NCBI GenBank assembly: GCA_007692425.1
Contig: RECG01000010.1
Location: 1 to 64,000 of the forward strand
DNA from: Acholeplasmataceae bacterium
GTDB taxonomy: Bacteria; Bacillota_I; Bacilli_A; Acholeplasmatales; Acholeplasmataceae
DNA length: 64,000 bases
Direction: 5' to 3'
This document shows, one piece after another, positions 7,399 through 58,136 of the stretch. The translations under genes and the position numbers were made by a program. Every line of letters starts with the position of its first letter. The first letter of the stretch is position 1. The notes beneath the pieces were generated by a model that was not told the DNA's origin, did no database searches, and worked only from the letters and a program-made list of their open reading frames with translations.

Positions 7399-7502
7399 CC
7401 CCATCAAGCATCATCATCCACATAATAAAAGTGCTTATGGCTGCTTCGATCAAGACCTGACCAGGTTCACACCCTACTATTGAATGATGATGCTTGATGG
7501 GG
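7399..7502 (-). ncRNA. ffs: Signal recognition particle RNA, small bacterial type
   Basis: The minus-strand RNA begins and ends with a perfect 19-base inverted repeat (CCCCATCAAGCATCATCAT at the 5' end), giving the long closing helix of 4.5S-type SRP RNA. The internal segment AACCTGGTCAGGTC, then GAAGCAGCC, matches the conserved Ffh-binding symmetric and asymmetric loops. It is about 104 nt with no Alu domain. The apical loop between these parts reads CTTGAT rather than the usual GGAA-type tetraloop. Five T follow the 3' end (7394-7398). Placement directly after tadA matches other Firmicutes; dnaX is not next to it here. Confidence 0.92.
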
Positions 7503-8817: not shown

Positions 8818-8869
8818 GATGATTCTCCTTCCGCCATGACCTTTTGGCCATAGTAAGTTTCGCTACGTT

Positions 8870-18978: not shown

Positions 18979-19515
18979 TCAGTCCTTCTTATTGAACACT
19001 TCTTCGTATTTTTCAATCGATTTGGCGATGATTTGTTTGGCGGATTCGGCGCCTTCGACATCAAGGATGTATGTCTTTTTGCCTTCCAACGACTTATACA
19101 CTTCAAAGAAGTGCCCCATTTCAGTCAACAGATGCGTCGGCAGCTCGTTGATGTCTTTGTACTGGGTCAACGATGGATCGCCAAACGGAATGGCGATGAT
19201 TTTTTCGTCAATCTGGTCTGAATCCACCATTTTCATCACACCGATCGGATAGCAATCCACAAGGCTGAGGGGCTCAATGTCTTCCTGACACAGCACCAGC
19301 ACGTCCAGCGGGTCGTTGTCGTCTGCATAAGTCCGGGGGATGAAGCCATAATTTGCCGGGTAATGGGTCGACGTAAAAAGAATGCGGTCCAAGATAATCA
19401 TGCCCGTTTCTTTGTCCAATTCGTATTTTTTCTTGCTTCCTTTGGAGATTTCAATACATGCGATGAATTCGTCTGGTTGAATTCTCGATTTACTGATGTT
19501 GTGCCATATGCTCAT
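18979..19515 (-). CDS. ppa: Inorganic pyrophosphatase (family I)
   Basis: Soluble Mg-dependent pyrophosphatase of 178 residues. Family I motifs are visible: KYELDKETG (about 30-38), YPANYGFIPRT (about 53-63), and the metal-binding DDNDPLDVLVL (about 65-75). A strong ribosome site (AAAGGAGA) precedes the ATG. Upstream lies an unidentified structured RNA with its own promoter and terminator (19564-19823); a TGATACAAT sequence between that terminator and the gene could be a separate extended -10 promoter. Confidence 0.95.
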   Translation of the reverse strand: MSIWHNISKSRIQPDEFIACIEISKGSKKKYELDKETGMIILDRILFTSTHYPANYGFIPRTYADDNDPLDVLVLCQEDIEPLSLVDCYPIGVMKMVDSDQIDEKIIAIPFGDPSLTQYKDINELPTHLLTEMGHFFEVYKSLEGKKTYILDVEGAESAKQIIAKSIEKYEEVFNKKD

Positions 19516-19563
19516 GGTTTTGTCTCCTTTTTCATCTCATCCTTATTGTATCAAACCCGGTTC

Positions 19564-19598
19564 AAAAAAAACACCCCATCACATCGGGTGTTTTTTTT
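19564..19598 (-). terminator. Terminator at the end of the structured RNA, before ppa
   Basis: On the minus strand ACACCC and GGGTGT pair around a short loop and are followed by eight T. The hairpin also has an A/T run on both sides, so it may work in both directions. It ends about 48 bases before the ppa start codon. Confidence 0.85.
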
Positions 19599-19788
19599 GG
19601 GGGGGAACACAACCTTGCTTTATCATTAAGCCACTCATCCCCTATCGTGTTCCTCCTGGGCCGTGTTGCCTCGTCCGCATCTTTGAGCACCGTGTCTATG
19701 ACAACCCCTTTTGTCATACACCCGTGGTCACGACGTTTGCTGGCATCGCGATATTTCAGATCAAATAGACGATGCGGCGATTCAACAC
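19564..19788 (-). ncRNA. Unidentified structured RNA (sRNA or ppa leader)
   Basis: A minus-strand transcript is implied between the consensus promoter 19795-19823 and the terminator at 19564-19598, about 220 nt with no ORF. It has strong pairing: an outer helix GTGTTG/CAACAC (19783-19788 with 19663-19668) continued by CCGCATC/GATGCGG (19771-19777 with 19675-19681); an inner hairpin GTGT-ATGACAA/TTGTCAT-AG-ACAC (19692-19721, loop AAGGGG); and a second domain GGAACACGA/TTGTGTTCC closed by 19604-19612 and 19645-19653. I find no T-box, TPP, fluoride, tmRNA or RNase P signature. It may be a 6S-like or other sRNA, or a regulated leader of ppa. Confidence 0.65.
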
Positions 19789-19794
19789 ATTCCC

Positions 19795-19823
19795 ATTATA
19801 GCAACACGACCTGCGTTTGTAAA
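19795..19823 (-). promoter_or_regulatory. Promoter of the structured RNA
   Basis: Minus strand -35 TTTACA (19818-19823) and -10 TATAAT (19795-19800), 17-base spacing, in the gap after folD. Confidence 0.75.
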
Positions 19824-19853: not shown

Positions 19854-20711
19854 TCAAACTTTGTTCGCAACAAGATGTTCCATGTATAATTCATACGTGT
19901 TTTCGAGCAGTGCGTTGATGGTCATGGGTCCGACACCTTTCGGTACGGGCGTCAGGTGGGAAGCAACTTCTTTGACTGCTTCAAAGTCGACATCGCCAAC
20001 CAGTTTGTCATCGACGCGGTTGACACCGACATCGACCACGATAGCGCCTGGTTTGACCATGTCCGCACCGACCAGACGGGCCCGTCCGGCTGACACAACC
20101 AGCAGATCTGCTTGTTTTGTATGATAGGCCATGTCCTTGGTCTGGCGATGACAGATCGTGATTGTGGCACCTGCGTCCATCAACAACCTGGCGATAGGGA
20201 ATCCGACAATGTTGCTTCTTCCAACAATGACGGCATTCATGCCTTTGGGATTGATGTCATACGCGGAAAGCAGCGTCATGATGCCTTTGGGCGTCGCCGG
20301 CTTCGTGGTGGGCTTCTTTTGGTAAAGATACCCTTGATTCACCACGTGAAAGCCATCGGCGTCTTTCTCTCTGGCAATGAGATCGATGAGTTTGGCGTCA
20401 TCCAGATGGTCAGGAATCGGCAACTGCAAGATCATGCCATCGACCGTCGGATCCTGGTTCAGTTTTTCAATCAAGGCGATGACTTCGTCTTCGGTGACGG
20501 TGTCAGGCAATTGATGCAGTTCATGTTTGATGCCGACCAACGCGGAAGCTTTTCCTTTGCCTTTGACGTAAGAAAGGCTTGCCGGATTGTCACCGATCAT
20601 GATGATGGCCAGTCCCGGTTCCCGTCCGTGGACGGCAACCGCCTGCGCAATCTTGTCTTTCAATTGAAGGTTGCGTTCGGAAGCAACCTTGCGTCCGTCT
20701 AATAAAATCAT
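19854..20711 (-). CDS. folD: Bifunctional methylene-THF dehydrogenase/methenyl-THF cyclohydrolase
   Basis: FolD interconverts 5,10-methylene-, methenyl- and 10-formyl-tetrahydrofolate with NAD(P). The protein (about 285 residues) has the active-site YVKGKGKASALVGI segment with its Lys, DGMILQLPIPDHLD, and the cofactor-domain signature GRSNIVGFPIARLL. The ATG at 20711 fits the family N-terminus (MILLDGRKVA); a GTG at 20720, overlapping the fhs stop as GTGA, would add three residues and cannot be excluded. It is coupled to fhs. Confidence 0.94.
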   Translation of the reverse strand: MILLDGRKVASERNLQLKDKIAQAVAVHGREPGLAIIMIGDNPASLSYVKGKGKASALVGIKHELHQLPDTVTEDEVIALIEKLNQDPTVDGMILQLPIPDHLDDAKLIDLIAREKDADGFHVVNQGYLYQKKPTTKPATPKGIMTLLSAYDINPKGMNAVIVGRSNIVGFPIARLLMDAGATITICHRQTKDMAYHTKQADLLVVSAGRARLVGADMVKPGAIVVDVGVNRVDDKLVGDVDFEAVKEVASHLTPVPKGVGPMTINALLENTYELYMEHLVANKV

Positions 20712-20716
20712 GTGGC

Positions 20717-22315
20717 TCACTTGCCTTTCTCGGCAACGTTGCCCTCGTCATCGATGATGAAATCGAGCGCACGTGGTGTCTTGTTCAGTCCAGGCATGAC
20801 CATGATGCCTTTTGTCAAAGCGACCAGGAACCCCGCACCGAGGGAAGGTCGGACTGCTTGAATGTTCAAGGTGAACTGCTCGGGCAGGCCCTTGATGGCC
20901 GGATCACCTGTCAAGGATAACGGTGTTTTCGCCATGCAGACCGGCAAGTTCCATCCGAGTTCTTCATAATTGGCAAGTTGCTCAAGCGCTCTTTTGGAGA
21001 AGACGACTTCCCCGGCGCCATATAGTTTGGTGGCGATTTTTTCAATTTTGACCTTGGGCGGATCGGTCGGCTCGTACATACGCTTGAACGTTGCGGGGCG
21101 GTCAGCCTGCTTCATGACTTCCTTGGCCAGTTCAATCATGCCTTCTCCGCCTTCTACGAAGCCCTTGGACAACGCAATCGGATGCTGGTTGTCCTTGGCC
21201 CAGTTCATCAGATACGCAAGCTCTTCATCATCATCAACATCAAAATAATTCAACGCGATGACATAATTCATGCCATATTGTTTGATGTTTTCCAAATGTT
21301 TGTTCAAATGGGGTACGCCCGCTTTGAGCGCATCCATGTTTTTTTCCTGGTAATCTTTTGCACCACCGTGCAGTTTGAGTGCGCGCAGGGTGGCGACAAT
21401 CACGATGGCATCCACTTGTTTATTCAGATGAGGCATTTTCAAATCAAGGAATTTCTCCATGCCCAAATCGGCCCCGAAGCCGGCTTCGGTCACGGTGTAA
21501 TCACCGAGCTTGAGTGCCAGTCGTGTCGCCACGATGGAATTACAGCCGTGTGCGATATTGGCGAATGGTCCGGCGTGGATAAAGGCCGGAACCCCTTCTG
21601 TCGATTGGACCAGATTGGGATGGATGGCTTCCTTCAACAGCAGTGTCAGAGCATCTGCGCCACCAAGATCGGATACAAAAATCGGTTTGTCGTTTGGATC
21701 ATAGCCAATCAAGATGCGATTGATGCGGTTCTTCAAATCCTTGATGTCGCTGGCGAGAGCGAGGATGGCCATGATTTCACTGGCCGCGGTAATGACGAAC
21801 CCGTCTTTGCGCAAGGGCGTTTCGATGGACCTGAGACTACGATCGTTCATGTCCATGGTACGTGTCCAGACGACACGGTCGATATTGAGTTCGTTGCCTT
21901 GGAAGATATGGTTGTCAATCAGCGCACTCAACAAGTTGTTGGCTGACGTGATGGCATGAAGGTCGCCCGTGAAATGCAAATTGATTTCTTCCGAAGGATG
22001 GACGCTTGCCAAGCCGCCTCCGGTGGCGCCGCCCTTGAGTCCGAAGACGGGTCCCAAGCTGGGTTCACGCAAGGCAAGAACAGCCTTCTGGCCCACTTTT
22101 TGCAAGCCTTGGGCCAAGCCGATCGATATTGTGGTCTTGCCTTCGCCCGCCGGTGTCGGATTGATGGCGGTCACCAGGATCAGCTTACCGTCCGGTTTCT
22201 TGTCAAGCCGTTTGAGTGCCTTGAGATGAATCTTGGCCTTATTGGTCCCGAACGGAATGATCTCGTCATGTTGGATGTTGAGTTTTTGACACACTGAAAT
22301 GATGTCTGCTAACAT
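20717..22315 (-). CDS. fhs: Formate-tetrahydrofolate ligase
   Basis: Fhs joins formate to tetrahydrofolate with ATP. The 532-residue protein has the P-loop TPAGEGKTTISIG (about 54-66), LREPSLGPVFGLKGGATGGG, EINLHFTGDLHAI and the C-terminal RPSLGAGFLVALTKGIMVMPG. Length is slightly below the typical 555. Together with FolD and GlyA it can move carbon between formate, serine and the folate pool, producing ATP in one direction. Confidence 0.96.
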   Translation of the reverse strand: MLADIISVCQKLNIQHDEIIPFGTNKAKIHLKALKRLDKKPDGKLILVTAINPTPAGEGKTTISIGLAQGLQKVGQKAVLALREPSLGPVFGLKGGATGGGLASVHPSEEINLHFTGDLHAITSANNLLSALIDNHIFQGNELNIDRVVWTRTMDMNDRSLRSIETPLRKDGFVITAASEIMAILALASDIKDLKNRINRILIGYDPNDKPIFVSDLGGADALTLLLKEAIHPNLVQSTEGVPAFIHAGPFANIAHGCNSIVATRLALKLGDYTVTEAGFGADLGMEKFLDLKMPHLNKQVDAIVIVATLRALKLHGGAKDYQEKNMDALKAGVPHLNKHLENIKQYGMNYVIALNYFDVDDDEELAYLMNWAKDNQHPIALSKGFVEGGEGMIELAKEVMKQADRPATFKRMYEPTDPPKVKIEKIATKLYGAGEVVFSKRALEQLANYEELGWNLPVCMAKTPLSLTGDPAIKGLPEQFTLNIQAVRPSLGAGFLVALTKGIMVMPGLNKTPRALDFIIDDEGNVAEKGK

Positions 22316-57896: not shown

Positions 57897-57902
57897 GATA
57901 CA

Positions 57903-58136
57903 GAAATCGATGAAGAGACAAGTAACAATCATCCCTGTTGAAAGCGAGTCGGAACAGGTGGGAGCCCGACCAACACATGATGGTGAAAAACACTCTGAGA
58001 GACAGAAGAAATCATACTGAAAGTAGACCTGTCCGCACGCCGGCGTTATCGGCTCAAAGGGCTAGAAGACATTCTAGAACTAAGGTGGTACCGCGTAACC
58101 ATTACGTCCTTAGGTTTTTCTAAGGGCGTTTTCTAT
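57903..58136 (+). promoter_or_regulatory. T-box riboswitch leader of asnS
   Basis: The conserved AGGTGGTACCGCG is at 58083-58095, followed by the terminator hairpin CGTCCTTAG/CTAAGGGCG and TTTTCT (58105-58134). Stem I contains AGTAAC and GAAAAAC segments; AAC would be the asparagine specifier. Uncharged tRNA-Asn should relieve termination. This leader fills the gap between rmuC and asnS. Confidence 0.92.

Follow-up and report, generated by a model that had tools for sequence, protein, structure and literature searches.

The RNA encoded between folD and ppa in the Acholeplasmataceae bacterium studied here is probably an orphaned guanine-riboswitch leader that has been turned into a sponge for a C-rich small RNA (sRNA). 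It lies in a single stretch of 64,000 nucleotides (the window), which places within the Acholeplasmataceae through the relatives of its ppa and folD genes. Homology to guanine riboswitches, the loss of the aptamer core, an alternative fold, the gene of a partner sRNA, and a covarying complementarity between the two RNAs were all computed here. The initial annotation of the window had offered a leader for pyrophosphatase, a 6S-type RNA, or another sRNA, and it is the last of these options that fits.

Sponge RNAs are known and riboswitches are known, each on its own, and to our knowledge no riboswitch aptamer has been known before in an RNA that sequesters an sRNA. If the reading is true, a riboswitch leader can outlive its gene and, with a kept or gained pairing to an sRNA, open a route to a trans-acting regulator whose output survives the loss of ligand sensing. 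No description of a guanine riboswitch upstream of ppa, or of a riboswitch-derived sRNA sponge, was found in the part of the literature that was covered, and no sRNA sponge system was found described in the Acholeplasmataceae. A conserved C-rich sRNA of this family also emerges from the study, and the folD-ppa RNA together with the topA-tpx sRNA represents a locus pair whose coevolution can be tested directly.

Architecture of the folD-ppa RNA

The folD-ppa RNA is predicted to be a free-standing non-coding RNA of about 220 nt, transcribed from its own promoter and ended by its own terminator (Table 1). A promoter and a strong terminator around some 220 structured nucleotides had been described before, and both are confirmed, with no credible open reading frame between them. 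Shuffled sequence gives 1.6 ± 1.5 promoter sites of at least 9/12, and a near-consensus promoter is likewise present in the orthologous folD-ppa spacers. The near-palindromic terminator matches itself on the opposite strand, and may thus also stop transcription arriving from the other side.

The RNA is highly structured, with a folding z-score of -5.4 when the terminator is included (none of 200 shuffles as stable) and -3.6 when it is excluded, and its overall fold is a multibranch junction, not a rod. The three helices noticed in the initial annotation are real, each being conserved or covarying in relatives: the interrupted outer helix consists of GUGUUG/CAACAC and CGCCGCAUC/GAUGCGGACG, the bulged hairpin is P4, and the helix before the terminator is GGAACAC/GUGUUCC, which pairs 19653-19647 with 19610-19604. 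The CUG of the P2 loop is still able to pair with the CAG of L3, and the GGGGAU of the predicted sponge site has a mean unpaired probability of 0.85. Elsewhere, the window holds a T-box leader (RF00230, 101.7 bits, 57901-58114, plus strand), a bacterial small SRP RNA (7402-7496, minus strand), and an L31-Firmicutes ribosomal protein leader (8825-8853, minus strand).

Table 1. Features of the folD-ppa locus, in window coordinates.
Feature	Position	Strand	Basis or remark
folD, upstream neighbour	19854..20720	-	Pfam PF00763 and PF02882
Sigma-70-type promoter of the folD-ppa RNA, TTTACA-17-(TG)TATAAT	19795..19823	-	11/12 consensus match, extended -10 TG
Predicted non-coding RNA transcript	19564..19788	-	Sequence, fold, covariance model match
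Outer helix P0, 5' strand	19781..19789	-	Pairs with 19670-19662; 5/9 pairs changed on both sides
Alternative helix A:C, 5' strand CGCCGCAUC	19771..19779	-	6/9 pairs changed on both sides
P2 hairpin UAUUU-GAUCUG-AAAUA, homologue of riboswitch P2	19752..19767	-	Alignment
P3 hairpin, homologue of riboswitch P3	19729..19750	-	Alignment; preceding J2/3 segment GUUUCUACC deleted
P4 hairpin, AAGGGG loop (19710-19705) and AG bulge	19688..19726	-	Fold and covariation
Alternative helix A:C, 3' strand GAUGCGGACG	19672..19681	-	Covariance model and covariation
Outer helix P0, 3' strand	19662..19670	-	Covariance model and covariation
3' domain hairpin GGAACAC...GUGUUCC, displaying the putative sponge site	19604..19653	-	Fold and covariation
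Putative sponge site CGAUAGGGGAUGAGUGGC	19630..19647	-	18 contiguous predicted pairs to the C-rich sRNA G000:C7:93993
Intrinsic terminator, stem and U-run	19564..19598	-	Retained in spacers that lack the RNA
Separate extended -10 promoter of ppa (TGATACAAT)	19545..19553	-	TGnTAAAAT conserved in spacers with and without the RNA
ppa, inorganic pyrophosphatase, downstream neighbour	18979..19515	-	Pfam PF00719

Descent from a guanine riboswitch

DNA similarity revealed no relative of the window RNA in 61 genomes; relatives came to light through synteny alone, their loci being reached through homologues of ppa and folD. A homologous RNA lies between these genes in about 27 other Acholeplasmataceae genomes, and in many members the spacer measures 285-355 nt (419 nt in one) and combines the same promoter with a terminator and an RNA of comparable length. 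The guanine type of the Purine aptamer (RF00167) was recognised by Rfam in 19 of the 20 folD-ppa relatives tested, at 43-66 bits, and 16 relatives show no variation in the aptamer core (UAUA; GUnUCUAC; and the C of CUAC in J3/1, which is the mark of the guanine type). Canonical guanine riboswitches elsewhere in the family precede an NCS2 permease, and the outer helix P0 (GUAUUCA...UGAAUAC) and P4 are common to both kinds of RNA. Common descent of the window RNA with the guanine riboswitch is borne out by synteny, by RF00167 in the orthologues, and by the covariance models described below.

The folD-ppa orthologues are best explained as orphaned guanine-riboswitch leaders that have kept the aptamer, P0, and P4 and added a 3' domain, the riboswitch terminator and the regulated permease gene having gone. 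Loss of the permease with retention of its leader is the simplest history, and duplication of a leader the alternative. In the sister family (L095, L097, L104), a guanine riboswitch and an NCS2 permease stand directly upstream of ppa, the pair coming after a purB-like and a flavodoxin-like gene. The window's own genome has a canonical guanine riboswitch at G000:C20:39798-39899 (L141), upstream of an NCS2 purine permease, in which P0 encloses the entire leader as far as the ribosome binding site.

Loss of the guanine pocket and an alternative fold

The window RNA had been described as belonging to no known class, and this is true of the window copy, which has no meaningful match to Rfam families at the gathering threshold or at E ≤ 10 and no Purine match even at E = 10; it is not true of the orthologues, whose guanine riboswitch aptamer makes the RNA riboswitch-derived. 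A few weak Rfam matches on the opposite strand at the terminator were judged to be chance. The J2/3 core UUUCUACC, which forms part of the ligand pocket, shows a nine-nt deletion in the window copy in the alignment. Helix P1 has a pairing probability of 0.00 there, and its strand sits in A:C instead: in relatives the 5' strand of A:C serves as the 5' half of P1, and the strand that makes up the 3' half there is here absorbed into the base of P4.

Two covariance models express this difference. Model R1 was built from 16 relatives in the riboswitch fold, and model R2, trained without the window copy, takes the alternative fold, in which P1 is taken apart, its 5' strand pairing downstream (A:C) and its 3' strand becoming part of P4. 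R1 finds only the window copy in the 64 kb, at 23.2 bits (E = 0.0012), and R2 matches 19606-19789 over its full length as the sole match in the 64 kb, at 32.2 bits (E = 7.1e-7), so that the window copy gains 9 bits under the model lacking P1. All 17 of the 17 canonical riboswitches score lower with R2 than with R1, by about 4-22 bits. Covariation in relatives, which had been proposed as a check, was found: 39 of the 52 pairs of the alternative fold are changed on both sides in 28 sequences, a count equalled by none of 500 shuffles, in an alignment that was itself fitted to this fold, the scores of left-out sequences being the stronger evidence. The P1-less structure was derived from relatives, and its excess over slid versions is therefore partly expected. 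Compensatory changes in P0 and A:C occur in the window copy itself. The idea that J2/3 pairs with GGUAG in the 3' domain was also dropped, as no covariation was seen by eye.

The alternative fold is, without ligand, thermodynamically dominant in most relatives too, and forcing P1 costs 3-8 kcal/mol in three examples. Guanine riboswitches bind their ligand tightly, and this cost is in a range that ligand binding could pay. The window copy descends from the guanine riboswitch class but, lacking its defining features, does not belong to it. Judged by sequence, no purine gene under cis control stands beside it, the next gene being ppa with a predicted promoter of its own.

A C-rich partner sRNA between topA and tpx

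Outside the aptamer and P4, no unpaired stretch is better conserved than GGGGAUARGUARCAUC, which lies in the 3' hairpin. Complements of this motif in 15 whole genomes recur in the RNA itself and, in nearly every genome, in an unannotated gene whose flanks were identified by Pfam as topA and tpx. The gene consists of a promoter, about 105 nt, and a terminator, and its RNA is laid out as a hairpin GCAUCC/GGAUGC, UACUUAUCCCCUAUU, a hairpin GUGUAC/GUACAC, AAAAUCCCC, and then the terminator. The three hairpins covary, Rfam returns no meaningful match, and the C-rich topA-tpx sRNA is previously undescribed. In the window's genome the sRNA lies outside the window, at G000:C7:93993-94008 (L277, L256), with two CCCC motifs; because of G-U pairs, a search of this genome for the exact complement of the window motif missed it, and it was recovered through tpx synteny.

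The C-rich sRNA is conserved in many Acholeplasmataceae, including genomes without the folD-ppa RNA (G005, G015, G026, G012, G025, G063, G008, G029), and must therefore have other targets. At one topA-tpx locus (L253, G016), in a genome lacking the folD-ppa RNA, the sRNA promoter is kept and both CCCC motifs are lost.

Complementarity and coevolution of the two RNAs

The extended, conserved complementarity to an sRNA that is looked for in a sponge is present, at 18 nt in the window genome. Here CGAUAGGGGAUGAGUGGC of the window RNA and GCUACUUAUCCCCUAUUG of the sRNA form 18 contiguous pairs, 15 Watson-Crick and three G-U, flanked by mismatches, and the run scores 16.5 against a maximum of 11 among 60 shuffled sRNAs. 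Across genomes the complementarity spans 16-20 nt, and the longest complementary run falls in the 3' domain in 22 of the 23 genomes having both RNAs. A test of the motif against a consensus underscored some sRNA-bearing genomes that deviate from that consensus, and runs between each genome's own pair of RNAs are the fair measure.

Own pairs match better than swapped ones: 420 of 483 cells are paired in own pairs compared with 401 expected (0 of 5000 permutations as high), and 18 cells are compensatory compared with 6.8 by permutation (p = 2e-4; 23 genomes); these permutation tests ignore phylogeny, but the compensatory changes do fall in separate groups. Such changes include GUAAC opposite GUUAC in three groups and GCAGC opposite GCUGC in G076; G086 shows several. 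The site is degenerate or broken in five RNA-bearing genomes without a detected sRNA (G004, G017, G089, G090, G013). Duplex energy over the whole RNAs is a crude measure, by which the advantage of own over cross pairs is modest (-61.9 vs -58.9 kcal/mol), and 14 of 500 shuffled sRNAs do as well as the real one for the window RNA.

Sponge model and alternative explanations

The 3' domain would be the conserved output of the folD-ppa RNA, exposing a G-rich segment complementary to the C-rich topA-tpx sRNA; the AGGGG loop of P4 may provide a second contact. The RNA probably sequesters or destabilises the sRNA as a sponge or decoy; its transcription, the binding of the two RNAs, the direction of regulation, and an effect of guanine in relatives are predictions. 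In the window lineage J2/3 and P1 have been lost and the alternative fold is locked in, so that the window copy is taken to be a ligand-blind, constitutive sponge. More tentatively, and with rather less confidence, we propose that in most of these bacteria the RNA may be a guanine-gated sponge, of which the window copy would be a natural ligand-blind version. Guanine binding would form P1, which competes with A:C and the base of P4, and would alter the manner or the duration of capture of the C-rich sRNA by the G-rich sites, relaying purine status to the regulon of the sRNA.

A cis-acting leader or attenuator of ppa, in which the RNA fold controls read-through past the terminator, is unlikely, even though the RNA always stands immediately upstream of ppa and the 5' arm of the terminator can pair upstream in a few relatives (L062, L071, L079). 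The promoter of ppa comes after the terminator, and spacers without the RNA (e.g. L034, L035, L036, L050) retain the terminator followed directly by the extended -10 promoter of ppa, which indicates that the terminator is shared with folD and that ppa has its own start; the synteny of folD and ppa does not depend on the RNA either. In the window the terminator 5' arm is unpaired upstream (0.00) and the terminator stem has a probability of 0.87. Sequestration of this arm averages 0.33 in the folD-ppa RNAs and is mostly present in canonical permease riboswitches, a contrast used for clear cases only, since automatic terminator finding chose the wrong hairpin in some canonical leaders; a regulated terminator was on this ground rejected for the window RNA. 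No conserved antiterminator was seen in the folD-ppa RNAs. The earlier suggestion of a leader for pyrophosphatase is therefore unlikely.

It is quite unlikely that the window RNA is only a guanine riboswitch in decay, no longer functional in this lineage. The aptamer core is gone, the folD-ppa spacer of the nearest genomes in the genus (G001, G002) is without a copy, and comparable decay is seen in Peloplasma-like genomes (L068, L072), all of which a relic would explain. Against this, a 9-bit gain under the alternative fold is not what a relic should show. The window copy also retains a promoter matching at 11/12, folds strongly (z -5.4), carries compensatory changes in both P0 and A:C, and is still complementary to its partner over 18 nt.

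The relation might also be reversed, with the C-rich sRNA acting on the riboswitch-derived RNA, whose stability or unrecognised coding function it would control; or the RNA might have further targets. The AGGGG motifs resemble ribosome binding sites, the usual targets of C-rich sRNAs, and the direction is not given by sequence alone. Yet downstream of the two AGGGG motifs neither a start codon nor a reading frame is conserved, small hidden ORFs at these places proving not conserved on inspection, and the compensatory base-pair changes point to a structured non-coding RNA; we regard this explanation as very improbable. A 6S-type RNA, suggested by the size, the predicted free-standing transcription unit, and the failure to find another 6S in the genome, is hardly credible, given that RF00013 has no match in the whole genome, that the fold is a multibranch junction and no rod with a central bubble, and that the homology is clearly to purine-riboswitch RNAs.

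Comparison with known systems

The sponge reading joins features of several known systems. The window copy resembles the guanine (purine) riboswitch RF00167 in its P2 and P3 hairpins, a possible loop-loop contact, P0, and P4, and its orthologues in the same spacer carry the complete aptamer. It differs in lacking J2/3, P1, a regulated gene, and a riboswitch terminator or antiterminator, and in its added 3' domain with predicted pairing to an sRNA.

RosA of Bacillus subtilis is a sponge of RoxS and FsrA, about 225 nt long, with its own sigma-A promoter and control by CcpA, and its G-rich regions complement C-rich regions of the sRNAs, with 15 consecutive bases for RoxS (PMC8216469, PMC8464778). 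The window RNA is alike in approximate size, in having a predicted promoter of its own, and in setting G-rich regions against a C-rich sRNA; RosA differs in its CcpA control and in having no riboswitch origin, the RosA paper making no mention of riboswitches. RsaI (RsaOG) of Staphylococcus aureus is described as having two G-rich regions that bind C-rich sRNAs (PMC8216469), a likeness to the window RNA, and it is not described there as riboswitch-derived. RosA and RsaI use their G-rich regions to bind RoxS or RsaE-type sRNAs (PMC8216469, PMC8464778). Rfam, in which the window copy matches no family, gave no homology to RosA or RsaI, which does not count against a RosA-like action.

EutX/Rli55 is a non-coding RNA controlled by a cobalamin riboswitch that sequesters EutV, the ligand causing early termination (PMC5821096). 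It shares with the folD-ppa RNAs, as they are interpreted here, a riboswitch aptamer within a stand-alone non-coding RNA that sequesters a regulator in trans; it differs in sequestering a protein and not an sRNA, and the aptamer of the window copy is lost. By analogy, the folD-ppa RNA most likely combines a sponge logic as in RosA and RsaI with a riboswitch origin as in EutX/Rli55.
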